Shown piece by piece: positions 4,775 to 29,075 of a DNA stretch of 64,000 bases. This stretch comes from Pedobacter sp. MC2016-14 (GTDB taxonomy: Bacteria; Bacteroidota; Bacteroidia; Sphingobacteriales; Sphingobacteriaceae). Position 1 is the first letter of the stretch; the number at the start of each line of letters is the position of its first letter. The translations under genes and the position numbers were made by a program. The stretch is taken from assembly GCF_020991475.1 (NCBI RefSeq), contig NZ_JAJMPA010000005.1, positions 62,001 through 126,000 of the forward strand. Direction: 5' to 3'. The notes under the pieces are model-generated. The model did not search any database, was not told the DNA's origin, and saw only the letters and a program-made list of their open reading frames with translations.

Positions 4775-4784
4775 ATCGGTGGTA

Positions 4785-5717: not shown

Positions 5718-5755
5718 ATATAATGATGTATTTTGATTGTATGTTTAAAATATAA

Positions 5756-9088: not shown

Positions 9089-9109
9089 TCCTTGCAATAC
9101 ATAAATATA

Positions 9110-9721: not shown

Positions 9722-9739
9722 ATTTTTATAATTTGTTTT

Positions 9740-10354: not shown

Positions 10355-10659
10355 CCACTGCAGGCGTCCAGATTTGTTGTTCACTTTGTTCAAGCGCAGA
10401 AGTTGCCTGAAATTACTGTTAGTAAGCATTTAACTATAAAAACCTAATTGTTCATTATATTCAGGTAGCGCTGCATCTGTAAGCAGCAGGCTGCATGAGG
10501 TATTGAATTGTTAAATTAAAGTGATTTTACAGATTAGATAAACTAATAATAGGCTTACTCATGAATATTCCGTTATTTTGGCGCTGTCATTCAGCATATG
10601 TTGTAACATGCAAAAACAGAGCGCTATGCTATTGGCTTATAACTAAGCAGTAAACAGAC
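10355..10659. other. Intergenic DNA upstream of ppgK, nothing clear
   Basis: This AT-rich stretch between the divergent TlpA and PpgK genes has no convincing gene. A near-match to the Bacteroidota -7 box (TTATTTTG, one base short in spacing) lies near 10573-10580 and may serve ppgK, but the fit is poor. Confidence 0.3.
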
Positions 10660-11418: not shown

Positions 11419-11427
11419 ATTAAAACA

Positions 11428-12840: not shown

Positions 12841-12926
12841 ACTGATAAAAATAGAATGGAAGATACGGGGGTGCTGAATTTTACCGGCACCTTGGTTAAG
12901 TTCCCGGATATAAATACGATAATTCA

Positions 12927-14438
12927 ATGAAAACATCAATTAATCTTAAGCCCACTATCTTTGTAATTTTTGGTGGTACAGGTGACTTAAACATGCGCAA
13001 ACTGGCGCCTGCTTTATATAATCTATATGCTGACGGCTTTATGCCTAAGAAATTTGCCATTATTGGTACCGCGAGGAAGAAACTTAATGATCAGAAATTT
13101 CAGGATACCATTAAAGAAGGAATTAACAGCTTTTCCAGATCTGGTAAAGTAAAGGATGATAAATGGGCCAGTTTTGCAGCAAATGTTTACTACAATCCGG
13201 TAGATGTTTCTGAGCCAGAAACTTTTGGTGTCCTTAAAACAAGTATAGAAAAACATAAAGCTGAATTTGGGGCAGATACGCAGGTAGTGTATTACCTGGC
13301 CGTTGCCCCTAACCTATTCCCGTTAATTGCGCAATGCCTGGCTACTTACGACCTTACAGGTGATGAGGAATCTGTTAGAATTGTAATTGAAAAACCTTTT
13401 GGCAGGGACCTCGAAACTGCGAAAGAATTAAACGCTTTACTTACAGGCATTTTTACCGAAAAACAGATTTACAGAATTGACCATTATTTGGGTAAAGAAA
13501 CGGTACAGAACATTATGGCCTTCCGTTTTGCGAACTCGTTTCTAGAACCGCTTTGGAACCGCACATATATAGATCACATTCAGATTTCTGTTACTGAGCA
13601 ACTGGGTGTTGGCGACCGTGGCGGTTATTATGACGGGTCTGGCGCATTGAGGGATATGATTCAGAACCATTTATTGCAATTGCTTTGCCTGATTGGCATG
13701 GAAACACCGGTAAACTTTGATGCTGATGAAATCAGGAATAAAAAAGTAGATGTGTTAAAAGCAATGCGTCCTTTCAGTTCTGACGATATCCGCATGAGCA
13801 CTGTACGTGGTCAATATGCTAAAGGTTGGGTGGAAGGTAAGGAAGTGCCTGGCTACCGCCATGAAACGGGGGTAGATCCGGATTCCAATACAGAAACTTT
13901 TGCGGCAATTAAATTCTTTGTTGACAACTGGAGATGGCAGGGCATCCCTTTTTATGTACGTACTGGTAAACGCCTGTTCCAAACTTCTTCTCTGATTACC
14001 ATTCAGTTTAAAGATGTTCCACATCATATTTTCCCATCTGCGGTTACCGAACACTGGCAACAAAACAGGCTGATCATTAGCATCCAGCCGGAAATGAGCA
14101 TCCGCTTGCAGGTACAGGGAAAACGCCCTGGGCTGGATATGGTACTGAATCCTGTAGACATGGTTTTTGATTACAAAGGTACTTATACCTCAGCTGCTCC
14201 TGAAGCTTACGAAACCTTGCTTTTAGATGTGATGACTGGTGACCAAACGCAATTTATGCGTGCTGACCAGGTAGAAATTGCCTGGGAATTGCTAATGCCG
14301 GTAGTTAAATCATGGGAAAGCAAAAAATCACTAAGTTTTCCTAACTACACTGCAGACTCATGGGGACCTGAAGATGCTGAGGCCTTAATTGCGCGGGATG
14401 GCTTCCACTGGTTTACTTTACCTTTAAATAAGGACTAA
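12927..14438 (+). CDS. zwf: Glucose-6-phosphate 1-dehydrogenase
   Basis: A 503-residue enzyme oxidising glucose 6-phosphate to 6-phosphoglucono-lactone and usually reducing NADP. The nucleotide-binding motif FGGTGDLNMRKLAPALYNL opens the protein, EKPFGRDLETA follows, and the substrate-binding signature RIDHYLGKETVQN is intact near residue 185. Length and C-terminal domain are normal. Its stop TAA shares a base with the pgl start (TAATG), so the two are translationally coupled, which matches their consecutive reactions. Confidence 0.97.
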   Translation: MKTSINLKPTIFVIFGGTGDLNMRKLAPALYNLYADGFMPKKFAIIGTARKKLNDQKFQDTIKEGINSFSRSGKVKDDKWASFAANVYYNPVDVSEPETFGVLKTSIEKHKAEFGADTQVVYYLAVAPNLFPLIAQCLATYDLTGDEESVRIVIEKPFGRDLETAKELNALLTGIFTEKQIYRIDHYLGKETVQNIMAFRFANSFLEPLWNRTYIDHIQISVTEQLGVGDRGGYYDGSGALRDMIQNHLLQLLCLIGMETPVNFDADEIRNKKVDVLKAMRPFSSDDIRMSTVRGQYAKGWVEGKEVPGYRHETGVDPDSNTETFAAIKFFVDNWRWQGIPFYVRTGKRLFQTSSLITIQFKDVPHHIFPSAVTEHWQQNRLIISIQPEMSIRLQVQGKRPGLDMVLNPVDMVFDYKGTYTSAAPEAYETLLLDVMTGDQTQFMRADQVEIAWELLMPVVKSWESKKSLSFPNYTADSWGPEDAEALIARDGFHWFTLPLNKD

Positions 14439-15472: not shown

Positions 15473-17125
15473 GTGGTCATCAAAGTAAGTGTGTTCAGTA
15501 TTCTCTCCATCCTCTCATTAACATTATTGTTAATGGTTGTGGGAAGTACATTGGGATACGCACAGACCTGTACCGCCCCTGTAAAGACCTATGCAAATTA
15601 TGAAGATCATGGAGATTCTCACGTATTAGTCGCTTCTTCAAGTACATCTTCCACGTCAAGTGCTGTAGGTGCAAATCCCACTAACACACCGGCTGTTCTA
15701 AATGTAGTAACTGTCCTAGGTGCCGCGGAGGCTTGGATAGAACTCAAATTTGTGGGGAGCACGATACCTGCCGGAAGTACTACCTATGTGAAAATTGGTG
15801 GTAGCAGTGCTCTAAATGTGTTAAATCTGATAGGTGGGGCAAGTTCTCCAGTCTCTGCGTATAGTGGTGCTACTTCTGCGACGACAATTGCAGGTCAGGG
15901 TACACAGATAGCTGCTGCCAGCGTAAAAGTTAGCAACTTCTCAGCCGCTGATGGCTCTATTTACCTCGCCATAACTTCTGCTCTAGCCTATAATGCGGTA
16001 AAAATTGCCATAAATGCTTCGGTAATAGTAGGCACTGGGCAATTATTTATATACCACGCATATTTCCAGACTGCAGGCTACAGCTGTGACCCGGCAGCGG
16101 GATCGGCTCCTTCTGTTAGTGGTTTGCTAACACTTGGCGGAGCAGTTACCAATCCTAATAATGCTTTTGACAATGACAAATCAACCGCTACCGTATTTTC
16201 TATGGGGGTGGCAGGTGTTGGTACTACCTTAAAAGAAACCATTTATTTTCCAGGGCCATCTAATACGGGTGATGCAGCCACGATAACCTTCTCCATTCCA
16301 CCCGCTTTATTACTGGACCTAAGTCTATTGAATAATATATCCGTTACCCCTTATAATGGAAATGTAGCAGGGACTTCAGTTAGTTTAACTTCTCTACTCT
16401 CTTTAGACCTGTTGGCACTATTAAGGGCAAACAATAAAACCACCGTTTCTATTGTACCCAGTTCAACTTTTGACCGGATAGAAATTTCCATGAGTTCATT
16501 GTTGGGCGTTTTAGCACAAATGAATCTATATGAGGTACAACGAACAGCACCGATCCCAACATTTGTTTCTCCAGCGGCTCAAAATCCTTCCATTTGTTAC
16601 AACAACTCGACTACGCTGAGTGCAACTGCCGGTACTTGTAATGAGCTACACTGGTACACTGTTCCAACCGGTGGAACTGCTACTGTAGCTGCAACCTATT
16701 CTACAGGGAATTTGACCAGCACCACCACTTATTACGTAGCCGCTGCAAGGATAGGCTGTACCGCGGAATCGGAACGCGTACCTGTTAAAGTGACCGTAAA
16801 TCCGCTGCCCGCAATTACCCCTGGTAATACCACGGTTTGCAAAGGAATTACCACGGCCAGTTTACCCTATTCGGCAGCAACAAATACACCAACAACCTAT
16901 AGCATTACCTGGAATGGGGCAGCTACTGCGGCTGGCTTTCTGAATGTTACCGATCAGGCGCTCGTAACTACCCCTATAACACTTAGTGTACCCTCCGCAG
17001 CGGCTGCTGCAACATATTCAGGCACACTAACCGTAAAAAATGCGAATGGATGTACCAGCACAACTAACAATTTTAATGTGGTTGTACACCCCAAACCCCT
17101 TACCCCCCACATAGCAATACAGTAA
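15473..17125 (+). CDS. Secreted Ig-like repeat protein of a surface/T9SS locus
   Basis: A 550-residue secreted protein that I cannot assign to a named family. The N-terminus is a signal peptide (VFSILSILSLTLLLMVVGSTLGYAQ). Residues 31 to about 365 form a Ser/Thr/Ala-rich beta domain resembling surface-adhesin modules. From about 370 on come two Ig-like repeats: an ICYNNSTTLSATAG module with WYTVPTGG, and a TVCKGITTASLPYSA module. It ends abruptly at PKPLTPHIAIQ without a sorting domain. The start is uncertain: there is no in-frame ATG ahead of the signal peptide. GTG at 15473 is the best choice; an ATG at about 15533 would truncate the signal. It is followed at 49 bp by a second secreted protein and then by CHU_C and PorP/SprF genes. 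Confidence 0.75.
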   Translation: MVIKVSVFSILSILSLTLLLMVVGSTLGYAQTCTAPVKTYANYEDHGDSHVLVASSSTSSTSSAVGANPTNTPAVLNVVTVLGAAEAWIELKFVGSTIPAGSTTYVKIGGSSALNVLNLIGGASSPVSAYSGATSATTIAGQGTQIAAASVKVSNFSAADGSIYLAITSALAYNAVKIAINASVIVGTGQLFIYHAYFQTAGYSCDPAAGSAPSVSGLLTLGGAVTNPNNAFDNDKSTATVFSMGVAGVGTTLKETIYFPGPSNTGDAATITFSIPPALLLDLSLLNNISVTPYNGNVAGTSVSLTSLLSLDLLALLRANNKTTVSIVPSSTFDRIEISMSSLLGVLAQMNLYEVQRTAPIPTFVSPAAQNPSICYNNSTTLSATAGTCNELHWYTVPTGGTATVAATYSTGNLTSTTTYYVAAARIGCTAESERVPVKVTVNPLPAITPGNTTVCKGITTASLPYSAATNTPTTYSITWNGAATAAGFLNVTDQALVTTPITLSVPSAAAAATYSGTLTVKNANGCTSTTNNFNVVVHPKPLTPHIAIQ

Positions 17126-17174
17126 TTAACAGAATATTAAACAAACAATTATTAACACTTAAACAAAAAAAATC

Positions 17175-17927
17175 ATGAAAACAAAATTGACAAAACTAGG
17201 TGCAACTCTACTGTGTGTATTTGCCCTTCAGATGAGCGCTTTTGCAGTTAGCTATCCTTTGTACTTATGTGGTGGCGCTACTGCTGCTTTAAGACCCGAT
17301 GCTACGGTTACTGCGGCATTACTTCCGGGAGACAGAATTATGTGGCAGGAATTTCAGGCTGACGGAACAACACCAATTGGGACCGTTACAGAAATAGCCG
17401 TGACTACCGCAGCCACAGCTCCAGCCTATACAACAGCTTCCGGACTGGCGACAGGTGCGCATGTATATAAAGTATTTGTGATCTCGGCCGCTCCAAACAC
17501 CTGTTCTGGAGATGTTTCTGATCCATTTAGCTTATATGTATTGCCTACATCCAGTGTTACTTTAGGTGCACCAACAGTGGCTAATTATTGCGAGGCCGGA
17601 GGTTCTGCTACTTCATCTGTGGTTACTGCCACTCCATCAACATTTGATTCGTCTTTAACTGATGTAAGTTTTGCTTTTACCTGGACTGCCACTAAAGATG
17701 GTGCTGCTGTGTCTGACGTAACTACAGTAGGTACAGCTGCAAGTAATGTATTTACAATAAATACAACAGCTGTTGGAGAGTATACCGTTAAAACATCAAT
17801 TGCCTATACGGTATCATCTGGTGTATTAAAATCTGGCGACAGCGCTGGCTGCGTACAAAGTTCCGGCAGCTCAACTGCTGTTAAAGTTACCGCAAAACCA
17901 GGAAAACCTGTTATCTCATTTACCTAA
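17175..17927 (+). CDS. Small secreted beta-rich protein of the same locus
   Basis: A 250-residue secreted protein of unknown family. It has a signal peptide (KLGATLLCVFALQMSAFA) and then two beta-rich, Ala/Thr/Ser-heavy modules, each with a Cys pair (LYLCGG with NTCSGD; NYCEAGG with GCVQSSG) suggesting disulfides. Like its upstream neighbour it ends with a Lys-Pro-x-x-Pro-x-Ile tail (KPGKPVISFT). No sorting or anchor domain is visible. The CHU_C protein gene starts 20 bp later, so the three genes probably form one transcript and may assemble together at the cell surface. Confidence 0.75.
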   Translation: MKTKLTKLGATLLCVFALQMSAFAVSYPLYLCGGATAALRPDATVTAALLPGDRIMWQEFQADGTTPIGTVTEIAVTTAATAPAYTTASGLATGAHVYKVFVISAAPNTCSGDVSDPFSLYVLPTSSVTLGAPTVANYCEAGGSATSSVVTATPSTFDSSLTDVSFAFTWTATKDGAAVSDVTTVGTAASNVFTINTTAVGEYTVKTSIAYTVSSGVLKSGDSAGCVQSSGSSTAVKVTAKPGKPVISFT

Positions 17928-17947
17928 AGGTAGATTATTAATAAAGG

Positions 17948-18904
17948 ATGATGTTTAACAGAAAAATGAATTTTGCACTTAGTGTGCTGTTGCTTCCCGC
18001 AACAGCATGCTTTGCGCAATCTTCTGCTGGGCAACCGATCAAAATACCTTATGGAACATCGGGTACGCTACACGCCAATTCTGTTAATGCAGCTTCTTAT
18101 CAATGGATGAAAAACGGAAACATCATCCCGGGTGCCACACAACTGAATTATGTGGTAACAACCAGTGGCGTTTATACTGTGCAGGCTTTTAATGTCCATG
18201 GCTGTCCATCCGAAACTTCTGATCCAACTACGGTAATTGTGGAGCCAAACGCAGTGCTTAGCGCTGATGTAATGATTGCAAAAAGTGCTGAATCCAGGTC
18301 TGTATCGCTAAACGATCCCTTTGAATATTTATTAAAAATTAAGAACAATGGTGCCGGAACGGCAACGCAGGTAAGGGTTAAGGATGTTCTGCCTGATGAA
18401 CTTGTTTTTGAATCTTTAGTAAGCCCTGCTGTGGGAACGGCAAATTACAGTCAGGTAACAAGAACTGTAAGCTGGAACATAGACCAAATGTACAACGGGC
18501 AGACTGCCGAGCTGAGGTTGATGGTTAAAGCAATTAAGCCGGGCATAGTAAAAAATACGGCCACCGTTAGTTCTTTTGAAACCGACCCTGTTTTAACTAA
18601 CAATAGTGCTGCTGATTCTAAAATGATTGCGGGTATTATCATAGCCAATACATTTACACCAAATGGGGATGGCAAAAATGACACGTTTGTAATTCCGGGG
18701 ATTGAGAATTACGCAGATAATAATCTTGTGATTTTGAACAGATTTGGAAGTCATGTTTACGAAAGCAAAAACTATAAAAATGACTGGACGGGCGAAGGGC
18801 TAAATGAAGGCACTTATTTTTATATTCTAAAATTAAAAAATGCCGCAGGTGGCCTGGATGTTTATAAAGGCTACATCACCCTTTTACGGACCAAGACAAA
18901 TTAA
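17948..18904 (+). CDS. Secreted protein with Ig/DUF11-like modules and CHU_C gliding-type C-terminal domain
   Basis: A 318-residue secreted protein. Order of parts: signal peptide ending CFAQ, an Ig-like module (YQWMKNGNIIPGATQLNYVV) to about residue 95, a DUF11-type repeat (DPFEYLLKIKNNGAGTATQVRVKDVLPD) at about 105-225, then a gliding-motility-associated C-terminal domain. The last carries the hallmark NTFTPNGDGKNDTFVIPG and the ending GTYFYILKLKN...GYITLLR. CHU_C is a type B sorting domain for export through the type IX secretion system. It lies 17 bp ahead of a PorP/SprF gene, the usual partner for type B cargo. Confidence 0.88.
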   Translation: MMFNRKMNFALSVLLLPATACFAQSSAGQPIKIPYGTSGTLHANSVNAASYQWMKNGNIIPGATQLNYVVTTSGVYTVQAFNVHGCPSETSDPTTVIVEPNAVLSADVMIAKSAESRSVSLNDPFEYLLKIKNNGAGTATQVRVKDVLPDELVFESLVSPAVGTANYSQVTRTVSWNIDQMYNGQTAELRLMVKAIKPGIVKNTATVSSFETDPVLTNNSAADSKMIAGIIIANTFTPNGDGKNDTFVIPGIENYADNNLVILNRFGSHVYESKNYKNDWTGEGLNEGTYFYILKLKNAAGGLDVYKGYITLLRTKTN

Positions 18905-18921
18905 TCTTTAGCAGGCAGCTT

Positions 18922-19902
18922 ATGAAAAAGATGGTATTACCTTTCCTGTTTATCTTGTTTTTTGGCTTTGCAAAGGCGCAACAGGATGCACAGTTTACAC
19001 AATATGTGTTCAATGGACTGCATATCAATCCTGCTTATGCCGGATACAAGGAAGACCTTTTTGTTCAGTCTTTTTACCGCTCGCAATGGGAAGGTGTTAA
19101 GGGTGCGCCTAAAACATTTACGGTATCTGCAGATGTGGCCACTAATGAGGGTAATGTTGGGCTGGGCCTGATTGTTACCAATGATAAAATTGGCGCGCAA
19201 CGTTATTTAACCGCATTTGCGAATTATGCTTACAGACTTAGAGTAGGCTATGATGAATCTTCCAGACTGTCTTTTGGGATTGCCCTCGGGATTGCACAAC
19301 TTGGAATTGACGGTAATGAACTATCTACAATTCAGGATAACGACATCATTGTACCTACAGGTTTTCAAAGTATTAGGGTACCAGACGCCAGGTTCGGGAT
19401 ATTTTATTCAAACAACAACTACTATATTGGTGCTTCGGCCACCAACATCCTGGCTAAATACATGTCCAGAAACGCCACGGCACAAATTCTTGTTCCGGTG
19501 CCACAACCGCATTTGTATGTAACCAGCGGAGCTTTGTTTAGCTTAAATGATGCTATAAAAATTAAACCTGTGTTGATTTTAAAAGAAGATTTTAAAGGAC
19601 CTGGTTCATTAGACATCAGTGGTTTTCTTCTACTTAAGGAACAGGTATGGTTGGGTGCTTTTGCACGTACTTCTGTAAACCTGGTACCAAAAAACAATCT
19701 GCAGCGGGGTTTGACAAAAGAGAGTGCAATGGGCGGTATTATAGAAGTTTTTGCTGCGCCTAATCTTAGAATAGGTTACTCTTACGATTATTCGATAAAT
19801 TCTCTCCGCAATTTTAATTACGGGAGCCATGAGATTTCTATTGGCTTGTACCTAAAAAGCAAAAGGGCAGACAACGGAAGATTGCGCTGCTACGATTTTT
19901 AG
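18922..19902 (+). CDS. PorP/SprF-family outer membrane protein
   Basis: A 326-residue outer membrane beta-barrel of the PorP/SprF family. It has a signal peptide (LPFLFILFFGFAKAQ), the family opening QDAQFTQYVFNGLHINPAYAGYKEDLFVQSFYRSQW, repeated amphipathic strands, and ends in HEISIGLYLKSKR. SprF-type proteins retain or display large type IX secreted proteins bearing type B C-terminal domains. Here the cargo is probably the CHU_C protein just upstream. It ends 62 bp before the polyketide operon. Confidence 0.92.
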   Translation: MKKMVLPFLFILFFGFAKAQQDAQFTQYVFNGLHINPAYAGYKEDLFVQSFYRSQWEGVKGAPKTFTVSADVATNEGNVGLGLIVTNDKIGAQRYLTAFANYAYRLRVGYDESSRLSFGIALGIAQLGIDGNELSTIQDNDIIVPTGFQSIRVPDARFGIFYSNNNYYIGASATNILAKYMSRNATAQILVPVPQPHLYVTSGALFSLNDAIKIKPVLILKEDFKGPGSLDISGFLLLKEQVWLGAFARTSVNLVPKNNLQRGLTKESAMGGIIEVFAAPNLRIGYSYDYSINSLRNFNYGSHEISIGLYLKSKRADNGRLRCYDF

Positions 19903-19964: not shown

Positions 19965-21104
19965 ATGCGCTACGAAACCGATATTTTAATAGTTGGTGGG
20001 GGTTTAGCTGGATTAACCAGTTCAATTCATTTATCCAGAGCCGGTTTTAACGTAATATTAGTTGAAAAAGATGCTTACCCGAAGCATAAAGTCTGCGGGG
20101 AATATATTTCGAATGAAGTCCTGCCCTATTTACAACAACTGGGTGCTGATCCTTCTTTTCTGAATCCTATACAAATTACAGATCTTGAATTTTCTACCTG
20201 CGCAGGTGAAAACATCCTGACCAAGTTACCACTAGGAGGCATTGGTCTTAGCAGGTATACCCTGGATCATTACTTATCGCTTAAGGCGGTGGAATTTGGT
20301 GTAAAAATCATCATTGATACGATAACCGAAATCCATTTTGAAAACTATTTCTTTTCAGTACATTCTATTGAACATGAATTTAAAGCGAAGCTGGTATTGG
20401 GTGCTTATGGAAAAAGAGCCGGCCTTGACCAGCAGTTGAAACGTAATTTTATAAAACATCAGTCTCCATGGCTGGCTGTAAAAGCGCATTACAAAGGCAG
20501 CTATCCGAAGCATGTTGTGGGCTTGCATAATTTTAAAGGAGGCTATTGTGGCGTATCTAACGTTGAGGAGGAGAAGATAAATATTTGTTACCTCACTGAT
20601 TATGCAAACTTTAAAAAGCATAAAAACATCAATGAGCATCGGGAAAACGTATTGTATAAAAATAAAAATCTTAAGAATGTTTTTGAAAGTTGTACTGTGG
20701 ATTTTGACAGCCCACTGAGCATCAGCCAAATATCTTTTGAAAGAAAGGAGCTTGTGAAAGATCATGTTTTAATGATTGGAGATACAGCTGGCCTTATTCA
20801 CCCGCTTTGCGGAAATGGTATGGGCATGGCCATTCATAGTGCCAAAATTTGTGCTGAGCTAATTGTACAATATTATGAGCGAGGAACGACCAAAAATCAG
20901 GGAAAGGAATTGAGGGCTGGCCTGGAAGATGCTTACAAAACTTTATGGCACAAAAATTTTAGGAAGCGCATGCTGATGGGACGCATGCTGGCGACGATAC
21001 TGAGAAAAGAATATGTAGCTGACAAACTATTTTGGGGTTTTGTTAAGTTTCCGGATTTGCTACCCGCAGTTATTAGACAAACTCATGGTAAACCACTAAT
21101 TTAA
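19965..21104 (+). CDS. FAD-dependent oxidoreductase of the type III PKS operon
   Basis: A 379-residue flavoprotein of the geranylgeranyl-reductase/halogenase-like superfamily. The FAD-binding motif is GGGLAG at residues 11-16, KVCGEYISNEVLPYL at 42-56 is typical of the group, and the second FAD motif is MIGDTAGLIHPLCGNGMGMA at 270-289. The tail is basic and amphipathic (KNFRKRMLMGRMLATILRK), compatible with membrane association. It is the first gene of the eight-gene operon; the methyltransferase starts 4 bp after its stop. By analogy with flavoproteins beside other type III synthases it may hydroxylate or oxidise the aromatic product. A reductase or halogenase role cannot be excluded. Confidence 0.85.
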   Translation: MRYETDILIVGGGLAGLTSSIHLSRAGFNVILVEKDAYPKHKVCGEYISNEVLPYLQQLGADPSFLNPIQITDLEFSTCAGENILTKLPLGGIGLSRYTLDHYLSLKAVEFGVKIIIDTITEIHFENYFFSVHSIEHEFKAKLVLGAYGKRAGLDQQLKRNFIKHQSPWLAVKAHYKGSYPKHVVGLHNFKGGYCGVSNVEEEKINICYLTDYANFKKHKNINEHRENVLYKNKNLKNVFESCTVDFDSPLSISQISFERKELVKDHVLMIGDTAGLIHPLCGNGMGMAIHSAKICAELIVQYYERGTTKNQGKELRAGLEDAYKTLWHKNFRKRMLMGRMLATILRKEYVADKLFWGFVKFPDLLPAVIRQTHGKPLI

Positions 21105-21108
21105 CAAG

Positions 21109-21843
21109 ATGCTTGTAAATACTACTTATAGAAGCGAGGCACAGGAGATTATGGATGATTTTTCCATGCAGGGAGAAATATTGAGGGATGCCCTGGATAA
21201 AATTGCCCGCATTAACCAATTGTTGGGCGGAAATAAAATTACACTTGAAGGCGTTGCAAAGTTACTGACCGGACATACGAAAAGGGAAATAACCATTGTG
21301 GATATAGGTTGCGGAAATGGCGACATGCTGAGGGCACTAGCGGTTTATGGGACACAAAACAACTTAACTTTGAAGTTAATTGGAATTGATGCTAATGCTT
21401 TTACCATTGGCTATGCTGAACAACTTTCTTTTGGGGTAAGGAACATTAGTTATAAGTGTGTTGATATTTTTGAAGAAAATGCCCTTCCTGAATGCGACAT
21501 TATATTGTGTACCCTGACACTGCACCATTTTAAAGACGATGAAATTATTTCCTTGCTGGGGACTTTTAAAAGCCATGCTACTTTGGGTTTTGTGGTGAAT
21601 GATCTGCATAGAAGTAAAATGGCCTATTACTTATTTGAGGCCTTGTGTTTTGTTTTTGGTTTAAACTACATGTCGCGCAAGGATGGTCTGGTATCTATAT
21701 TACGTGGATTTAAAAGGAAAGATTTGATTGCTTATTCTGTAAAGCTTGGGCTGAATGATTACAAATTGCGGTGGAAGTGGGCGTTTAGATACCAATGGGT
21801 AGTTAGAACGACAAAGAACGTATTAAAACCTATGGATCAATGA
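21109..21843 (+). CDS. Class I SAM-dependent methyltransferase
   Basis: A 244-residue methyltransferase with SAM motif I IVDIGCGNGDML at about residues 63-74, an acidic residue after strand 2 (LIGIDAN), and motif IV-like CDIILCTLTLHHF. The helical cap and the C-terminal KLGLNDYKLRWKWAFRYQWVV are typical of small-molecule O- or C-methyltransferases. Its TGA overlaps the ATG of the polyketide synthase (ATGA), so the two are coupled and the polyketide is the likely substrate. The methylated atom cannot be predicted. Confidence 0.88.
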   Translation: MLVNTTYRSEAQEIMDDFSMQGEILRDALDKIARINQLLGGNKITLEGVAKLLTGHTKREITIVDIGCGNGDMLRALAVYGTQNNLTLKLIGIDANAFTIGYAEQLSFGVRNISYKCVDIFEENALPECDIILCTLTLHHFKDDEIISLLGTFKSHATLGFVVNDLHRSKMAYYLFEALCFVFGLNYMSRKDGLVSILRGFKRKDLIAYSVKLGLNDYKLRWKWAFRYQWVVRTTKNVLKPMDQ

Positions 21844-22892
21844 GTGTAAAAATTAAAACAGTTGCTAAGGCTTTGCCTTCTTATTCGCGAAGTACGGAAG
21901 AAATTATTCCTTTTTTAGATACCTGGTTGCATGGACAGGACGAGCGTTTTGTACGGAAGGTAAAAAAGATCTTTGAAAATGCGGGAGTGGACAAACGTTA
22001 TTCACTAATGTCACCGGAAGAAGTATTTAGCAATACGTCTTTCGAAGAAAAAAACAACATCTATATTCGTGAGGGCATAAAGCTTGGGGCAGAATGCCTG
22101 GAGCGGGCATTAGAGAAAGCAAACTGGGCGCCAGCCGACATCGATTATTTGATTACGGTAAGTTGCACAGGAATTATGATCCCATCTCTGGATGCGTTTC
22201 TAATTAACAAACTAAAAATGAGACAGGATGTGGTAAGGCTGCCCGTAACTGAAATGGGCTGCGCTGCCGGGATATCGGGAATGATCTATGCAAAGAATTT
22301 TTTGAAAGCTAATCCTGGAAAACGTGCCGCAGTAGTTGCAATGGAATCTCCGGCTGCGACTTTTCAACTTGATGATTTTTCTATGGCCAATATTGTTAGT
22401 GCAGCGATATTTGGTGATGGTGCCGCCTGTGTATTACTCTCATCTTTTGATGATGATGAAGGCCCGGAACTGGTAGCTGAAGAGATGTACCATTTTTATG
22501 ATGCAGAACACATGATGGGTTTTAACCTGACCAATACCGGTTTACAAATGGTATTGGATATTGAAGTACCTGAAACAATTGCGACCCATTTTCCGGAAAT
22601 CATTTACCCCTTTTTAGCAAAAGAAAATTTGACCATAGCCGACATAGATCACTTAATTTTTCATCCCGGCGGTAAAAAGATTGTGCAGGTAGTTGAAGAG
22701 TTATTCGGGAAACTTGGTAAAAATATTGACGATACCAGGGAAGTACTGCGCATGTACGGAAACATGTCTAGCGCCACGGTTTTATATGTTTTGGAGAGAT
22801 TTATGGATGCGCCTCATGAAAAAGGCGAAACAGGACTGATGTTGAGCTTTGGACCTGGTTTTTCTGCGCAAAGAATATTATTAAGATGGTAA
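21840..22892 (+). CDS. Type III polyketide synthase (chalcone/stilbene synthase-like)
   Basis: A 350-residue type III polyketide synthase. The Cys-His-Asn triad is complete: Cys141 (TEMGCAAG), His275 (IFHPGGKK) and Asn308 (YGNMSSATVL). The final GPGFSAQRILLRW matches the family ending GFGPGLTxE. Such enzymes extend an acyl starter with malonyl-CoA and cyclise the chain into pyrones, resorcinols or naphthalenes. The position of Phe gatekeepers is not clear by eye, so starter size is open. Neighbouring ketosynthase, dehydratase, enoyl reductase and ACP suggest a dedicated fatty-acyl starter. It overlaps the methyltransferase by 4 and the reductase by 7 bases. Confidence 0.93.
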   Translation: MSVKIKTVAKALPSYSRSTEEIIPFLDTWLHGQDERFVRKVKKIFENAGVDKRYSLMSPEEVFSNTSFEEKNNIYIREGIKLGAECLERALEKANWAPADIDYLITVSCTGIMIPSLDAFLINKLKMRQDVVRLPVTEMGCAAGISGMIYAKNFLKANPGKRAAVVAMESPAATFQLDDFSMANIVSAAIFGDGAACVLLSSFDDDEGPELVAEEMYHFYDAEHMMGFNLTNTGLQMVLDIEVPETIATHFPEIIYPFLAKENLTIADIDHLIFHPGGKKIVQVVEELFGKLGKNIDDTREVLRMYGNMSSATVLYVLERFMDAPHEKGETGLMLSFGPGFSAQRILLRW

Positions 22893-23680
22893 GAGAGTTT
22901 GAAAAGCAGAACTATTGGGCCATTATTTTGGGCGGCAGCAGCGGTCTTGGTCTTGCTTCAGCTGCTAAACTGGCCGCTCATGGGATGAATATTTTAATTG
23001 TGCACCGCAATACGCGGGAGGAAATGAAGGTCATAAATCCATTATTTGAAGCCCTTAAAGTCCCCGGCATTGAGGTACTTACTTTTAATATGGATATCAC
23101 AAACCCAGCATGCCGGGCGGAGGTTGTTAAAGCTTTATTAGAAAAACAGGCGGCAGGAAAAATACGCTGTTTATTGCACAGTATTGCAAAAGGCAATTTG
23201 AAAGCGATGGTATCAGATACAGCAGCGGTATTGGAAAATGACGATTTTGTGCTTACTTTGCAGCACATGGCCATTAGCTTGTACGACTGGACTAAAGTTA
23301 CATTTGAGGCAAAATTATTTGCTGAAGATGCCCGTGTGCTTGCATTTACAAGCGAAGGCTCTGCCAAAGCATGGAAACATTATGCAGCGGTATCTGCGGC
23401 CAAGGCCAGTTTAGAAGCAATAACAAGAAGCATTGCACTTGAATTTGCACCTTATGGACTACGCGCCAATTGTGTGCAGGCTGGTGTAACCGATACCCGA
23501 TCTTTTAGGATGATTCCTGGAAGTGATCGGCTTAAGGAGCATAGTATTGAGAACAATCCTTTTAAACGTTTAACAACTGCTGAAGATGTGGCAAATGTAG
23601 TTTACCTGCTTTGCAAAGATGAGGCAGGATGGATAAACGGCGCCATAATTCCTGTGGATGGAGGAGCTGGCATCTGCTAG
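22886..23680 (+). CDS. Enoyl-ACP reductase-like SDR (FabL/FabI type)
   Basis: A 264-residue short-chain dehydrogenase/reductase. The cofactor loop is GGSSGLG at residues 16-22. The catalytic Tyr166 and Lys173 (HYAAVSAAK) are separated by six residues, the YX6K spacing of enoyl-ACP reductases FabI and FabL rather than the YX3K of ketoreductases. The following ASLEAITRSIALEFAPYGLRANCVQAG and final INGAIIPVDGGAG closely follow the FabL pattern. It would reduce the enoyl-ACP made by the dehydratase encoded next. It begins inside the end of the synthase gene. Role in starter synthesis is inference; fold and residue spacing are direct. Confidence 0.82.
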   Translation: MVREFEKQNYWAIILGGSSGLGLASAAKLAAHGMNILIVHRNTREEMKVINPLFEALKVPGIEVLTFNMDITNPACRAEVVKALLEKQAAGKIRCLLHSIAKGNLKAMVSDTAAVLENDDFVLTLQHMAISLYDWTKVTFEAKLFAEDARVLAFTSEGSAKAWKHYAAVSAAKASLEAITRSIALEFAPYGLRANCVQAGVTDTRSFRMIPGSDRLKEHSIENNPFKRLTTAEDVANVVYLLCKDEAGWINGAIIPVDGGAGIC

Positions 23681-23695
23681 AGATTAAATTATTTT

Positions 23696-24145
23696 ATGAT
23701 GAAAGAACAAGATATATTAGCAAAATTACCTTACAGTAGTCCCTTTTTATTTGTAGATGACCTGCAAGAGATTGACGAAAATGGTGTTACCGGTACCTAC
23801 ACTTTTAACAGCGGGCTGGATTTTTATAAAGGACACTTTAAAGACCATCCTGTAACTCCTGGGGTAATTTTAACAGAAACGATGGCGCAAATTGGGTTGG
23901 TTTGTTTGGGGATTTATTTAATGGGCGACCTGGAAGCGGGAATGACTGGCCATGTTATGCTAACATCTACCGCAATTGATTTTATGAAACCTGTTTTTCC
24001 GGGTGAGCAGGTTACGGTAGTATCCGAGAAAGTATATTTCCGGTTTAAAAAACTGCATTGTAATGTAGTGATGAAAAACGGGAACGGCGAAATAGTTTGT
24101 AAGGGAAGCCTTTCTGGCATGGTTACTACCAAGTTAAATGGCTAA
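23696..24145 (+). CDS. 3-hydroxyacyl-ACP dehydratase (FabZ-like hotdog)
   Basis: A 149-residue FabZ-type hotdog protein. The catalytic pair is His47 (KGHFKDHPVTPGVILTE) and Glu61 (TETMAQIG), within the classical GHF-x3-P-x3-PG-x5-E-x2-AQ arrangement. It opens with LPYSSPFLFVDDLQEID like FabZ. It removes water from 3-hydroxyacyl-ACP, between ketoreduction and the FabL-like step. The C-terminus overlaps the ketosynthase start by 8 bases. No ketoreductase is encoded in the operon, so a genomic FabG would have to supply its substrate. Confidence 0.9.
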   Translation: MMKEQDILAKLPYSSPFLFVDDLQEIDENGVTGTYTFNSGLDFYKGHFKDHPVTPGVILTETMAQIGLVCLGIYLMGDLEAGMTGHVMLTSTAIDFMKPVFPGEQVTVVSEKVYFRFKKLHCNVVMKNGNGEIVCKGSLSGMVTTKLNG

Positions 24146-25415
24146 CAGGGTTGTAATTACCGGATTGGGTGTAGTGGCGCCTAACGGAATTGGGCTAGCT
24201 CAATTTTCTGAAGCCATTAAACTGGGCAAGTCCGGAATTAAACATCAGCCTATGCTCCAGGATCTTGAATTTTCCTGCCAGATTGCGGGCAAACCTCCCC
24301 TTTCTGAAGCGTTAATTTCTCAGTACTTTAATCCGTTGGAGCTTAAAAACTTTAACAGCAGTGGTATTTTATATGGTGTGATTGCGGCAGTGGATGCCTG
24401 GAAGGATGCCGGACTGTTGATAAACGAATGTACGGAGCCGTACTGGGATTGCGGGACAATATTTGGAACGGGGACTTCGGGAATAGACAGGTTTCGTGAG
24501 GCCATTTACAAGATAGATGAAAAATTGGTACGCAGGTTGGGCAGCACAGTGGTACAGCAAACCATGGCAAGTGGGATAAGTGCCTGGATTGCCGCGAAAT
24601 TAGGACTTGGCAACCAGATCAGTACAAACTCTTCTGCTTGTGCTACAGGTACTGAAGCTATTTTGATGGCGTACGAGCGCATCTGCGCTGGAAAAGCAAG
24701 GATTATGCTGGCCGGCAGCACAAGCGATAGTGGCCCCTACATTTGGGGTGGTTTTGATGCGATGAAAGTTTGCACGTTTAAGCATAACGATTTTCCGGAA
24801 AAGGGTTCGAGACCAATGAGTGCCTCTGCAAGTGGCTTTGTACCGGGAAGCGGTGCCGGAGCATTGGTGATAGAATCTTTGGATAGTGCGCTGGAAAGAG
24901 GTGCCCGAATTTATGCCGAACTACTGGGAGGGAATGTGAATAGTGGCGGGCAGCGAGGTAAGGGTACGATGACTGCCCCCGGCCCTGTGGCTGTACAAAG
25001 GTGCATTGTAAATGCCATTAAGGATGCAGGCATTGAAACGCAGGATGTTGACGTGATTAATGCGCATTTAACCGCAACTGCCATGGATGCCTTAGAAATT
25101 GAAAACTGGAGTATTGCACTTCAGCGAAGCGGCACCGATTTTCCATATATAAATTCTTTAAAAGGAATGACCGGACATTGTATTGCAGCAGCAGGGAGTA
25201 TAGAAACTGTGGCTGCAGTATTGGAGATAAAGGAGGGATTTATTTTTCCAAACCTCAATTGTGAAGACCTGAATCCACACATTACGGAGATTGTGGATCC
25301 TATAAAAATACCACGTGAGCTACTGCATAAAAATATAAACATCCTTGCAAAGGCCAGCTTTGGTTTTGGGGACGTGAACGCTTGTATCATCTTAAAAAAA
25401 TATAGCCATGAATGA
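24138..25415 (+). CDS. Beta-ketoacyl-ACP synthase (FabF-like)
   Basis: A 425-residue KAS II-type ketosynthase. The triad is Cys168 (STNSSACATGTEAI), His310 (VINAHLTATAMDALE) and His347 (LKGMTGHCIAAAGS), with Lys342 in place. The acyl-pocket region and PGSGAGALVIES are normal. It elongates acyl-ACP with malonyl-ACP. All catalytic residues are present, so it is a true condensing enzyme and not a chain-length factor; there is no second KS in the operon. It overlaps both neighbours by 8 bases, indicating tight co-expression with the dehydratase and carrier protein. Confidence 0.93.
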   Translation: MANRVVITGLGVVAPNGIGLAQFSEAIKLGKSGIKHQPMLQDLEFSCQIAGKPPLSEALISQYFNPLELKNFNSSGILYGVIAAVDAWKDAGLLINECTEPYWDCGTIFGTGTSGIDRFREAIYKIDEKLVRRLGSTVVQQTMASGISAWIAAKLGLGNQISTNSSACATGTEAILMAYERICAGKARIMLAGSTSDSGPYIWGGFDAMKVCTFKHNDFPEKGSRPMSASASGFVPGSGAGALVIESLDSALERGARIYAELLGGNVNSGGQRGKGTMTAPGPVAVQRCIVNAIKDAGIETQDVDVINAHLTATAMDALEIENWSIALQRSGTDFPYINSLKGMTGHCIAAAGSIETVAAVLEIKEGFIFPNLNCEDLNPHITEIVDPIKIPRELLHKNINILAKASFGFGDVNACIILKKYSHE

Positions 25416-25659
25416 TGAAACATTAAAAAGATTGAGACCCATTGTTGCTACCTATGCACAAAATAAAGAGGCATTGGAAACGATTACGGAAGATACCGAC
25501 TTTATAAGGGACCTTAAAATTAACTCTGCCAACCTTGTTGATGTGGTGCTGGATATTGAAGAAGAGTTTGACATTGAGATAGACAACGATTCCATGGAAC
25601 AAATGCTAAATGTAAGGGTAGCTTTACAAGTGATTGAAGCTAAGTTACAACAGAAATGA
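25408..25659 (+). CDS. Acyl carrier protein of the polyketide operon
   Basis: An 83-residue acyl carrier protein with the phosphopantetheine site at Ser40 (DLKINSANLVDVVLDIEE). It uses INSAN instead of the usual ADSLD, so it is diverged from the housekeeping AcpP. The flanking helix pattern and acidic helix II are kept. It would carry the growing chain of the local ketosynthase, dehydratase and enoyl reductase. It overlaps the ketosynthase by 8 bases and the phosphopantetheinyl transferase by 4. Confidence 0.92.
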   Translation: MNDETLKRLRPIVATYAQNKEALETITEDTDFIRDLKINSANLVDVVLDIEEEFDIEIDNDSMEQMLNVRVALQVIEAKLQQK

Positions 25660-26126
25660 TAGGAATTGATCTGGTTGATTTACATGTGGCAAAGAGCGAG
25701 AGCAATTGGCGCAGAACAGGATATTTGGAAAAGATTTTTACAGGGGCAGAACAGGCGACCATAAAAAATGCGGTTGAACCAGAAATTATGGTTTGGTTGT
25801 TTTGGAGCATGAAGGAGGCCACATACAAGGTTTGGTCGAGAATGCATGCTAATCAAAGAGTTTATGCACCTACCAAAATATCCTGTGTAGTAGAGGAGCT
25901 GGAGCAGAAATGTATGGCTGGCCTGGTCACTTATATGGGGCAGGTATATCATACCCGATCTTTCTTAAGAGCGGATTGTATTTATACGTTGTCTGCTTCA
26001 CAGCCACAACTTTTTGAACAATCCACAATAAGCATAACGGAGTGGACCGGTAACGAAAAACCTTATCCAAAAGATAAGGCTATTACCGTAAGTCACCATG
26101 GCAAATACCTGGCGCTTGCCTGGTAA
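25656..26126 (+). CDS. 4'-phosphopantetheinyl transferase
   Basis: A 156-residue phosphopantetheinyl transferase superfamily protein. The magnesium-binding motifs are MIGIDLVDL (Asp5) and WSMKEATYK (Lys53-Glu54), in the order and spacing of a single AcpS-like domain with an extended C-terminal part. It transfers 4'-phosphopantetheine from CoA to the ACP serine, and the adjacent ACP is the obvious client. Its ATG overlaps the ACP stop (ATGA). It is the last gene of the operon, and its stop abuts the ppx stop on the other strand. Confidence 0.88.
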   Translation: MIGIDLVDLHVAKSESNWRRTGYLEKIFTGAEQATIKNAVEPEIMVWLFWSMKEATYKVWSRMHANQRVYAPTKISCVVEELEQKCMAGLVTYMGQVYHTRSFLRADCIYTLSASQPQLFEQSTISITEWTGNEKPYPKDKAITVSHHGKYLALAW

Positions 26127-27011
26127 TTAATCTTCTAAATTTTCGTCAATCAGCAGGTTAATGATACCATCTGCCAGGCCTACGCTGGGCACATAAATTT
26201 GTTTTATCCCTGTCCACTTCATTAAGGTGAGGTAAATTTCACAGGCAGGAATAATTACATCTGCACGGTCTGGCTTTAGGCTAAAAACAGTGATTCTTTC
26301 CTTTAAAGAGTGGCTGTTTAAATCATTAAACATACTCCTAAGCTTTAAAAATGGCAATGGATGTCCGTCTTTTTCGCCAGACATTTTGAAAAGCTTATTG
26401 ATATTACCCCCGGTACCTATACCAGCAAGATTTTTTAAATGTTTGGTCTGTTCCTTTACCCAAAGTCTCATTTCTTCCCAGGTTTCGTCTTTGTCCTGAT
26501 TATCTAAGATTCTGATGGTGCCAATATCAAAAGATCTGGACGCTACCGGAAGCTTATTCACAAATACCGAGAGTTCTGTACTACCGCCACCCACATCTAT
26601 ATAAAGATAACTTTTCCTGATGTCAAGCGTTTCTTCGATATGATTGGCATAAATGATATTTGCCTCACGCTGCCCCTCTATGATCTCTAAATCTATATTG
26701 GCTATCTTTTTGATCTTTTTAACAATCTCCAGCCCATTCTTTGCTTCGCGCATGGCCGAAGTAGCACAGGCAAGATAAGTGGTTACATGATAAACATCCA
26801 TGAGGTTTTTAAAGGCCGACATTGTTTTGATTAAATCCTCAATTTTACGGTCGCTGATTTTCTGATCCAGAAAAGCATCATCACCCAGGCGCAAGGGAAC
26901 TCTGACCAGCGTATTTTTTTTATATTCGTAACCCCGACTTGTTTTAGAAATATCGGCAATGAGTAACCTAACGGCATTAGAGCCAATATCAATGGCAGCG
27001 TATCTTAGCAT
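26127..27011 (-). CDS. ppx: Exopolyphosphatase (Ppx/GppA family)
   Basis: A 294-residue Ppx/GppA phosphatase, consisting of just the two actin-like half domains. It shows AAIDIGSNAVRLLIAD, the Glu-containing IIEGQREANIIY and DVGGGSTELSVF; GIGTGGNINKLFKM is in the second half. It hydrolyses terminal phosphate from polyphosphate, or the gamma-phosphate of pppGpp; the close link to ppk favours polyphosphate. The gene lies 6 bp downstream of ppk and is probably co-transcribed. The C-terminal HD-like domain of E. coli Ppx is absent, as in many short homologues. Confidence 0.9.
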   Translation of the reverse strand: MLRYAAIDIGSNAVRLLIADISKTSRGYEYKKNTLVRVPLRLGDDAFLDQKISDRKIEDLIKTMSAFKNLMDVYHVTTYLACATSAMREAKNGLEIVKKIKKIANIDLEIIEGQREANIIYANHIEETLDIRKSYLYIDVGGGSTELSVFVNKLPVASRSFDIGTIRILDNQDKDETWEEMRLWVKEQTKHLKNLAGIGTGGNINKLFKMSGEKDGHPLPFLKLRSMFNDLNSHSLKERITVFSLKPDRADVIIPACEIYLTLMKWTGIKQIYVPSVGLADGIINLLIDENLED

Positions 27012-27017
27012 GTAATT

Positions 27018-29075
27018 TTACTGGTGTTTGTTCTTTAAATAATTATATGTGTGGATTTGCGCCCGCACTTTAACGTCAAGCTTATTTTTATGGTACTTGT
27101 TATTATTCAATTTGGTAATGTCACGGGCCTTTACGTTATCCTGCAGCTGAAAATCTATAATATCACGGATTTCCTGCTTCACTTCCTTATCGAGAACAGG
27201 AAAGCCTACTTCTACCCTATGCTCAAAATTCCTGCTCATTAGGTCGCCTGAGGATAAATACATTTCTTCTTTACCATTGTTACCGTAGATAAACACCCGG
27301 GCATGCTCAAGGAATTTATCGACAATACTTATTGCGGTGATATTTTCACTAAAGCCAGGGATACCGGGCACAAGGCAGCAAATTCCACGAACAATGAGTT
27401 TAATTTTTACGCCAGCATTGCTGGCTTCGTATAATTTATCTACGATACCTTCATCGGCCAGGCTATTTACCTTAAAAATGAGATAAGCCGGTTTGCCTGA
27501 TTTGGCAATTTTTATTTCCCTGTCTATATTGGCATAAAACTTATTTCGTGACTCTAACGGAGAAATAATGAGGTGCTTAAAACCTTTGGTAACGGTTTTT
27601 TTGTTTAGTGCAGCAAAAAGCTTAACTAAATCTGTTGTAATTTCTTTTTTTGCAGTAAAGATGCTATGGTCACAATACAACCTGGCTGTCTTTTCATTAT
27701 AGTTTCCTGTAGCAAGGTTTGCATAATATACAGCTCTGCCCCGCTCTATACGTTTAACAAGGCATATTTTAGAGTGCACTTTATAATCCGACAGCCCATA
27801 ATTTACATGTACACCTTCTTCTTCCAAACGCTTTGTCCAGGAAATATTTGCCTGTTCATCAAATCGTGCTTTTAACTCTACCAGGCAGGTTACTTTTTTT
27901 CCATTTTTAGCGGCGTTGATCAATGCGTGAATCACCTTTGAATTTTCAGCAAGGCGGTATAACGTAATGTTGATTTCTGTTACCTTAGGATCTATTGCAG
28001 CTTCCCTTAAAAATAGAATGATATAATCATAAGATTGATATGGAAGGTTAACGAGGTAATCTTTTTCGGCAAGTTTGTTAAAGATACTCTCTGTACGGTG
28101 CAATCCTGCAACTTTTAGCGGGACAGTTGGCGCATATTCAAGTTCGGCAGCACCTACATTTGGAAAGCGGATAAAATCTCCGAAGCGGTGGTACCGATTT
28201 CCGGGAATGAGACTCTCAGATTCTATTTTCACTTTAGATACCAGTACGCTAAGCATATCAAAAGGCATTTCTGTATCGTAGAGTAAGCGCATTGGCTTGC
28301 CCTTTTTACGCTTATCGAGACTTGACTTTAGCTCATCAATAAATTTTTCACTAATGTTTTTATCTACATCCAGTTCCGCATCCCGCGTAAGCTGAATAGA
28401 ATAAGCATCAAGAGCATCGTAATTAAAGACATAAAAAATATCATCTAAACAGTATTTGATAATGTCTTCAACGAGGATAATAAATTTTAGTCCGTTTGTT
28501 TCTGGCAGTACCAGAAAGCGGGGAAGTCCATTTGGAAGTTCTATGAGGGCAAACTTCTCAGACCTTTTTGAACTGATTTTAGTAAGTCGTACAAAAAAAT
28601 AAAGGTATCTGTCTTTAAGTTCCGGAAATGGTTTTTCCGGGTCAATCATGATTGGAACCAGGTTAGAAAGGATTTTGTCTCTGAAATGATTGCGGACAAA
28701 CTCTCCCCTGGAAACGTTTAACTGGGTATCATTTAAAATAAAGATTCGATTTTGTGCTAGCTCATTTAGCAATGTAGCCTGAAAAAGCTGCTCAAACTTA
28801 CGCTCCTGTTTAACAACAATATTTTTAATTTCATTTAATACCTTTTTAGGATTAAAGCCCAACAGGGCCTTAGATTTATCATTTAAGTTGGCTAACCTTG
28901 TCATGGTAGCCACCCTTACACGGTAAAATTCTTCAAGGTTGGATGAAAAAATAGAAAGAAATTTAATCCTTTCAATTAACGGAACCGTTTCATCAGCAGC
29001 TTCTTGCAAAACACGTTCGTTAAAATGCAGCCAACTGATTTCTCTGTTTAAAAACGGTACTTTTTTCTTGGTCAT
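27018..29075 (-). CDS. ppk: Polyphosphate kinase 1
   Basis: A 685-residue enzyme of normal PPK1 length that polymerises ATP gamma-phosphate into polyphosphate. The N domain starts FLNREISWLHFNERVLQEA. The head domain follows, then the two PLD-like catalytic domains with YKVHSKICLVKR (phospho-histidine region), RLYCDHSIFTA and YLSSGDLMSRNFEHRVEVGFPV near the end. It forms an operon with ppx (6 bp gap). A lysine-rich protein gene lies 100 bp upstream on the same strand. Polyphosphate made here could supply PpgK encoded at 10660. Confidence 0.96.
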   Translation of the reverse strand: MTKKKVPFLNREISWLHFNERVLQEAADETVPLIERIKFLSIFSSNLEEFYRVRVATMTRLANLNDKSKALLGFNPKKVLNEIKNIVVKQERKFEQLFQATLLNELAQNRIFILNDTQLNVSRGEFVRNHFRDKILSNLVPIMIDPEKPFPELKDRYLYFFVRLTKISSKRSEKFALIELPNGLPRFLVLPETNGLKFIILVEDIIKYCLDDIFYVFNYDALDAYSIQLTRDAELDVDKNISEKFIDELKSSLDKRKKGKPMRLLYDTEMPFDMLSVLVSKVKIESESLIPGNRYHRFGDFIRFPNVGAAELEYAPTVPLKVAGLHRTESIFNKLAEKDYLVNLPYQSYDYIILFLREAAIDPKVTEINITLYRLAENSKVIHALINAAKNGKKVTCLVELKARFDEQANISWTKRLEEEGVHVNYGLSDYKVHSKICLVKRIERGRAVYYANLATGNYNEKTARLYCDHSIFTAKKEITTDLVKLFAALNKKTVTKGFKHLIISPLESRNKFYANIDREIKIAKSGKPAYLIFKVNSLADEGIVDKLYEASNAGVKIKLIVRGICCLVPGIPGFSENITAISIVDKFLEHARVFIYGNNGKEEMYLSSGDLMSRNFEHRVEVGFPVLDKEVKQEIRDIIDFQLQDNVKARDITKLNNNKYHKNKLDVKVRAQIHTYNYLKNKHQ

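Follow-up and report, generated by a model that had tools for sequence, protein, structure and literature searches.

What might a type III polyketide synthase (PKS) make when it is encoded in one operon with genes for building an acyl chain? The question is raised by Pedobacter sp. MC2016-14, in which a window of 64,000 nucleotides (the whole stretch of DNA analysed here, from contig NZ_JAJMPA010000005.1) contains eight open reading frames, all on the + strand, at positions 19965-26126. Judged from its genes, this operon is probably a phenolic-lipid assembly line: a cassette with a dehydratase (DH), ketosynthase (KS), acyl carrier protein (ACP) and phosphopantetheinyl transferase (PPT) would build an ACP-bound acyl starter, the PKS would make an alkylresorcinol or alkylpyrone from it, and a methyltransferase (MT) and a flavin adenine dinucleotide (FAD)-dependent enzyme would decorate the ring. 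The eighth gene encodes a short-chain dehydrogenase/reductase (SDR).

19965..21104, + strand: FAD-dependent oxidoreductase (geranylgeranyl-reductase / flavin monooxygenase superfamily), predicted ring hydroxylase or oxidase (Pfam, NCBIfam, model)
21109..21843, + strand: class I S-adenosylmethionine (SAM)-dependent MT, predicted ring C- or O-methyltransferase (Pfam, NCBIfam, kinship with PKS-MT-FAD trios)
21840..22892, + strand: type III PKS, C141/H275/N308 (Pfam, NCBIfam, PDB, alignment, tree, model)
22886..23680, + strand: SDR of enoyl-ACP-reductase type (Y-x6-K), optional part of the operon (NCBIfam, PDB match, alignment)
23696..24145, + strand: FabZ-like (hotdog) 3-hydroxyacyl-ACP DH, H47/E61 (Pfam, NCBIfam, alignment)
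24138..25415, + strand: FabF-like KS, C168/H310/K342/H347 (Pfam, NCBIfam, alignment)
25408..25659, + strand: ACP, S40 (Pfam, NCBIfam, alignment)
25656..26126, + strand: small PPT, ACPS family (Pfam, NCBIfam)

The genes are tightly packed, with junctions of +4 (FAD-MT), -4 (MT-PKS), -7 (PKS-SDR), +15 (SDR-DH), -8 (DH-KS), -8 (KS-ACP) and -4 bp (ACP-PPT). Open reading frames, Pfam and NCBIfam bear out an earlier reading made from the letters of the window (the sequence-only reading), which had given these eight genes, their coordinates, their spacing of -8 to +15 bp and, at family level, their identities. The matches are FAD_binding_3 and the geranylgeranyl-reductase superfamily (FAD enzyme), Methyltransf_25 (MT), Chal_sti_synt_N and _C (PKS), adh_short_C2 with FabL as the best NCBIfam model (SDR), FabA-like/FabZ (DH), ketoacyl-synt/FabF (KS), PP-binding (ACP) and ACPS (PPT). 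All listed NCBIfam scores lie below their cut-offs; the operon enzymes are therefore diverged, and their names hold at the level of the family rather than the enzyme.

A gene set conserved across Bacteroidota

The sequence-only reading had proposed a search for the same ordered gene set in other Bacteroidota. Its PKS and KS were sought in 395 Bacteroidota genomes, a sample drawn evenly from the larger group, where 33 have both, and gene order was read in 80 named loci, the top-ranking ones among at least 566 relatives, which lean towards close kin of the window. Genome searches began with a permissive first pass, and absences are valid at that sensitivity. A PKS of the window's clade is present at 65% identity or more in these 33 genomes, the next match being at 39%, and the operon KS occurs at 57% identity or more in the same 33 genomes, each time on the same strand and within 1.6 kb of the PKS. 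Five further genomes have a KS match at 48-52% and no PKS of the window clade; the KS match in genome G084 contains one TAA.

The named loci span Pedobacter, Flavobacterium, Chitinophaga, Dyadobacter and metagenome-assembled genomes (MAGs). The order FAD-MT-PKS-DH-KS-ACP-PPT is found in 68 of the 80, and an order identical but for an added SDR in five. Of the remaining seven, four run off the end of a contig (L054, L084, L099 and L109), two, from Dyadobacter, are rearranged, with the cassette turned round in both, and L055 deviates only through a spurious 26% SDR match. That order is kept across the named loci indicates that the gene set is not a product of chance. Gene by gene, the PKS and MT are present in all 80 loci, the DH and KS in 79, and the ACP, PPT and FAD enzyme in 77. 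Every miss of the DH, KS, ACP or PPT falls on a contig that ends early (L054, L099 or L109), and the three FAD misses comprise one contig end (L084) and the two Dyadobacter loci, which have 9 kb of flank. Median gaps across the loci run from -8 to +11.5 bp, with each start placed at the furthest upstream start codon, a choice that makes overlaps look larger. The eight genes form one conserved unit. Beyond them no neighbour is widely conserved, the commonest flanking family occurring in 28 of 66 loci.

The polyketide synthase

The operon PKS is the sole PF00195 match above cut-off in the 5.04 Mb genome; a second, sub-cut-off match is FabH-like by eye. The protein passes the PF00195 and PF02797 cut-offs and its best Foldseek matches are type III PKSs, which places it in that class. 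The triad C141/H275/N308, named in the sequence-only reading, is indeed invariant in 18 aligned PKSs (window included) and at least 97% conserved in 110. The closest solved folds to the PKS model (predicted local distance difference test score, pLDDT, 87) are Pks11 (template modelling (TM) score 0.92, 31% identity) and CylI (TM score 0.91, 25% identity), which by their entry titles are long-acyl-chain users or resorcinol formers, Pks11 giving alkylpyrones and CylI a resorcinol product.

Among PDB sequence matches, Pks11 comes first (175 and 171 bits) and tetrahydroxynaphthalene synthase (RppA/THNS) is the third-best distinct one at 149 bits. We rejected THNS as the identity of the PKS: its structure 1u0m ranks only 32 in the fold search and sits on a long branch outside the window clade (91/48, a weak placement). 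Tight kinship with a naphthalene synthase, which the sequence-only reading had named as the case against itself, was thus not found in the tree or the fold search.

The PKS tree has 71 rows: 35 chosen of 110 clade PKSs, 34 distant type III PKSs and two PDB fragments. Those distant PKSs come from 34 loci chosen, mostly from the top of the list, among matches in 134 other genomes. All 35 clade rows group together with 100/100 support on a long stem, set apart by a starred fork from the Bacteroidota PKSs that belong to PKS-MT-FAD trios. The comparison with SrsA, ArsB/C and RppA proposed earlier is answered here for THNS; SrsA, ArsB/C and HidC are not in the tree. In bit scores, the window PKS matches type III PKSs paired with an ICMT-family methyltransferase best (160-247 bits), the eight trio PKSs scoring 142-166 bits. 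The PKS forms a clade of its own, joining neither the trio set nor the ICMT-paired set.

A putative chain-building cassette with an optional reductase

Alignments show conservation of C168, H310, K342 and H347 in the KS, H47 and E61 in the DH, and S40 in the ACP, the active-site residues of these proteins. The sequence-only reading had described a private fatty acid synthase (FAS). The KS does accompany the PKS clade in 33 of 33 genomes, but the set is incomplete: malonyl transferase and FabH are not among the eight genes by Pfam or NCBIfam, nor is a separate ketoreductase unless the SDR acts as one, so that with a single SDR either the ketoreductase or the enoyl reductase is missing. The operon thus falls short of a complete type II FAS (ketoreductase, DH, enoyl reductase, KS, ACP, malonyl transferase and FabH). 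The genome holds three other FabF-like ketosynthases, at 30-33% identity to the operon KS, and 16 other SDR matches (E 1e-5), which indicates separate genes for housekeeping fatty acid synthesis.

The SDR carries the pattern Y-x6-K, a signature of enoyl reductases, as do all 17 of 17 operon SDRs, in keeping with the enoyl-ACP reductase (FabI/FabL) motif. Among seven other SDRs of the genome that were inspected, one fits Y-x6-K, and it also fits Y-x3-K, the FabG pattern. FabL is the best NCBIfam model, at 131 of 328 bits and so under the cut-off. The window and 12 of the other 32 clade genomes carry the gene (13 of 33), in every case no more than about 100 bp downstream of the PKS, and true SDRs occur in eight of the 80 named loci (L055 excluded). 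We accordingly rejected the SDR as a fixed part of the operon. Mere relocation elsewhere in the genome was also rejected, because 20 of the 32 other clade genomes, both sampled congeners included, have no match anywhere at E 1e-50. In ten named loci (eight labelled Pedobacter, two other MAG) the operon lies at the same site with ppx downstream; none of the ten has the SDR, and their PKS-DH gap is 21-74 bp, where the window has 803 bp. In the SDR tree, firm forks are few (5/17 starred). Species that lack the SDR must make an unsaturated chain unless they rely on an enoyl reductase of housekeeping metabolism.

The cassette was also seen outside the PKS clade in five sampled genomes. In two of these (G391 and G099) it has the order SDR-DH-KS-ACP-PPT, with some 3 kb between it and DarB, which scores 614.7 and 634.8 bits (cut-off 550). 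DarB is found at E 1e-80 in 33 of the 395 genomes, too infrequently for chance to explain readily why two of the five stray cassettes lie next to it. A nearby flavodoxin-like protein is a putative DarA by its position and sequence; NCBIfam named no DarA in G391 or G099, nor did Pfam in L113. The other three stray cassettes have a GNAT-like protein and a glycosyltransferase as neighbours (one GNAT-like protein and two glycosyltransferases confirmed by Pfam); a PPT match is absent in all three and an SDR match in two. Locus L116 (genome G077, 3851-14246) has a KS-DH-ACP-SDR cassette of the same family in a lipid-looking setting: its neighbours are a GNAT-like protein and a family-2 glycosyltransferase, and a BioF/serine-palmitoyltransferase-like enzyme lies some kilobases off. 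No DarB was found in its vicinity. A similar set, lacking the SDR, occurs in L115 and L117.

The window genome has no DarB match at E 1e-10, and we rejected membership of the flexirubin/dialkylresorcinol group for the operon. Fourteen of the 33 clade genomes encode DarB elsewhere, and because they carry both, the operon does not replace flexirubin-type genes.

The tailoring pair

Strong homologues of both the FAD enzyme and the MT occur in eight of the 34 loci around distant type III PKSs, and type III PKS-MT-FAD operons are also found on Falsirhodobacter and Paracoccus plasmids. In the FAD tree, 18 window-clade rows (94/98) adjoin nine Bacteroidota rows (87/91) at a joint fork of 82/87; trios supply seven of the nine, and the remaining two have a different gene context. 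The MT tree shows a similar but looser arrangement. Three rows of the FAD tree (L116, L140 and L143) were not counted as trios, with FAD-profile scores of only 19, 34 and 28 bits; they lie on very long branches that may disturb the midpoint root. L140, L143 and L144, with MT matches of 77-110 bits and no strong FAD match, stand outside the eight trio loci. The MT and FAD enzyme are kin of those in the trios, and the operon looks mosaic, its tailoring pair, PKS and cassette each having different kin.

Two observations stand apart. Five of the eight trio loci (L146, L147, L148, L149 and L151) contain a UbiA-like gene by clustering, the L146 copy being PF01040. On the Hymenobacter swuensis plasmid pHsw1 (L167, 4941-6125), an isonitrile synthase and a TauD-type dioxygenase precede a homologue of the FAD enzyme (34% identity), a context for this flavoenzyme family that differs greatly from the operon.

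A proposed pathway and its alternatives

We hypothesize that the PPT arms the dedicated ACP, on which the KS, the DH and, where present, the SDR would extend an acyl chain, with ketoreductase, malonyl transferase and initiation borrowed from housekeeping fatty acid synthesis. The acyl thioester would be handed to the PKS, which may add two or three malonyl units and cyclise the chain to an alkylpyrone or alkylresorcinol. The SAM enzyme would then methylate the ring, and the flavoenzyme would hydroxylate or oxidise it, possibly to an alkylquinone. The observations beneath this scheme are the gene content, the conserved catalytic residues, the co-occurrence of the genes and the presence of cassette and tailoring relatives in other resorcinol-type or type III PKS loci. 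Pks11 and CylI as the closest folds, together with the kept residues of the KS, DH and ACP, favour chain building on the ACP, hand-over, ring closure, methylation and oxidation. The resorcinol or pyrone product of the sequence-only reading gains from the cassette beside DarB in two genomes and from the trios, described as an alkylresorcinol pathway in the available text of two studies (PMC10896814, PMC8086630); the ring type and a quinone end product are what we infer.

Several results weigh against the scheme. Neither the FAD gene, which was not found within 19 kb around either Dyadobacter locus, nor the SDR, which 20 of the 33 clade genomes lack, is a constant member of the operon, so the steps assigned to these two enzymes are not general. 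The SDR sequence scores 87.6 bits against both FabL and a glucose/ribitol dehydrogenase. The window PKS clade stands on its own stem of 1.5 changes per column, the window PKS is 27-38% identical to the 34 distant type III PKSs, and Pks11 groups with L121 in the tree, not with the window clade. The best NCBIfam model of the PKS is DpgA (NF042429), an enzyme that uses malonyl-CoA only, although the score, 184.7 bits against a cut-off of 425, does not make it a DpgA. None of the 34 distant type III PKS loci has the cassette, from which it follows that trios work without a private starter. The forks joining the FAD and MT rows to trio relatives are moderately supported (82/87 and 80/80) in midpoint-rooted trees, and the FAD group that adjoins the window clade includes L165 and L167, settings without a type III PKS. 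The top fold and profile matches of the FAD enzyme are FADH2-dependent halogenases (Bmp2, PltA and Mpy16). A promoter-like motif of Bacteroidota (TANNTTTG), one copy of which starts 36 bp upstream of the FAD gene in the window, was dropped as no commoner than in shuffles: it occurs in 7 of 75 upstream regions, where shuffled sequence gives 6.9 and the reverse strand 11.

Of the other explanations, one that we regard as a real but lesser possibility makes the FAD enzyme a chain-saturating reductase like geranylgeranyl reductase, the product being a methylated alkylresorcinol or alkylpyrone with no quinone step. The geranylgeranyl reductase superfamily is its best NCBIfam model (96.9 bits, cut-off 158.8), and the nearest folds to its model (pLDDT 86), at 16-18% identity, include the geranylgeranyl-reductase-like 3oz2 beside the halogenases PltA and Bmp2. 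The role of the corresponding FAD gene in the planctomycetal trio of Gimesia was likewise left open in the available text of that study (PMC10896814). However, UbiI and 3-hydroxybenzoate 6-hydroxylase are in the same list of folds, and the FAD enzyme accompanies a type III PKS and MT in cassette-free loci.

It is unlikely that the PKS instead uses housekeeping acyl-CoA or acyl-ACP while the cassette makes a second acyl group that is later joined to the ring, as flexirubins combine an aryl-polyene acid with a dialkylresorcinol. Flexirubin links a polyene acid to a resorcinol through an ester bond (PMC3992019). The eight cassette-free trio loci show that a private starter is not needed, and the clade genomes with DarB show that the operon coexists with flexirubin-type genes, but the eight genes include no acyltransferase or esterifying enzyme, and no neighbour is widely conserved. 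Quite improbable, in our view, is a PKS that uses malonyl-CoA only, like DpgA or naphthalene synthase, and whose aromatic product feeds the KS-DH cassette to give an aryl-polyene-like chain, especially where the enoyl reductase is lacking. The DpgA model, the THNS sequence match and the frequent absence of the SDR, as a polyene builder would predict, all fit this idea; against it stand the DpgA score far under cut-off with no other Dpg-type gene in the operon, Pks11 and CylI as nearest folds with THNS at rank 32, and the lack of an aryl-activating or ammonia-lyase gene among the eight. That the flavoenzyme halogenates the ring, as its top matches might suggest, is very improbable and was rejected: the pattern W.W.I of the halogenase motif WxWxIP is found in 0 of 75 relatives, 69 of which have GGYCGV.

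Flanking genes

Upstream of the operon, positions 15473-19902 of the window hold what we take to be a run of repeat-rich, secreted-looking proteins, one with a gliding-motility-type C-terminal domain, followed by a presumed PorP/SprF-like protein that ends 62 bp before the FAD gene. Downstream (26127-29075), ppx-like (294 amino acids) and polyphosphate-kinase-like (685 amino acids) genes, named from sequence, point towards the operon. In the ten same-site loci, too, this ppx-like gene follows the operon. Synteny with these loci points to a Pedobacter-like member of Sphingobacteriaceae as the probable source of the window.

Comparison with known systems

Streptomyces srsABC is a trio of type III PKS, MT and FAD enzyme, and the window operon likewise unites these three genes. 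Hierridins come from a similar trio, hidABC (PMC8086630). In Corynebacterium, type III PKSs of planctomycetal trios produced pentadecyl- and heptadecylresorcinols; co-expression of the MT and FAD genes brought one further methyl, probably C-bound (PMC10896814). No acyl-chain cassette is described in the available text on these trios (PMC10896814, PMC8086630), whereas the window operon adds a KS, DH, ACP and PPT; its PKS also belongs to another clade than the Bacteroidota trio PKSs. The ars genes of Azotobacter vinelandii likewise combine type III PKSs with a fatty-acid-type synthase as the source of the acyl moiety (PMC3098273). There, however, the synthase consists of large type I FAS/PKS proteins (ArsA/ArsD), and in the window it is a set of discrete, incomplete type II proteins. 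Of the two precedents offered by the sequence-only reading, then, srs applies in gene make-up, and the type I FAS of ars does not.

The DarA/DarB and flexirubin loci share the cassette, in that two of the 33 DarB-bearing genomes carry the same SDR-DH-KS-ACP-PPT set beside DarB, but DarB is of the StlD/DarB ketosynthase family and not a type III PKS. Speculatively, and with little confidence, the cassette may have been traded between unrelated ring-forming synthases (type III PKS and DarB), gain and loss of the enoyl reductase switching between saturated alkyl- and polyene-bearing resorcinols, so that Pedobacter and Flavobacterium without the SDR would make an undescribed polyene phenolic lipid.

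A further relative is the pair of a type III PKS and an ICMT-family methyltransferase, like bpsAB (we assume that BpsB belongs to the ICMT family), which occurs in 17 of the 34 distant Bacteroidota loci and on a Lysinibacillus plasmid; it differs in its methyltransferase family and has neither FAD enzyme nor cassette. In six loci (L118, L119, L122, L125, L128 and L137), a type III PKS and an ICMT-type methyltransferase lie near lipoyl-synthase-like and dihydrolipoyl-acyltransferase-like genes, named from sequence.

Type III PKS clusters make up 10.74% of the predicted clusters in a survey of 2,680 Flavobacteriaceae genomes (PMC10734526). As far as their available text goes, surveys of this family count such clusters without describing the gene set of the window (PMC10734526, PMC7440613), and a text search of a Bacteroidetes-wide survey (PMC9248904) for type III PKS or T3PKS gave no mention. 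The view that no product has been characterised for this gene set agrees with the full-text literature searched, which names none and has most subscription journals outside its coverage.

If the proposed pathway is right, a conserved lipid of common environmental genera awaits identification, its biosynthesis is accessible by single-gene deletions in laboratory strains, and species with and without the enoyl reductase provide a natural experiment on chain saturation. In make-up the operon resembles an srs- or hierridin-type trio joined to a type II cassette more than it does the ars genes with their type I FAS. Phenolic-lipid synthesis by type III PKS, MT and FAD enzyme is already known; its joining to a type II chain-building cassette is the new variant.

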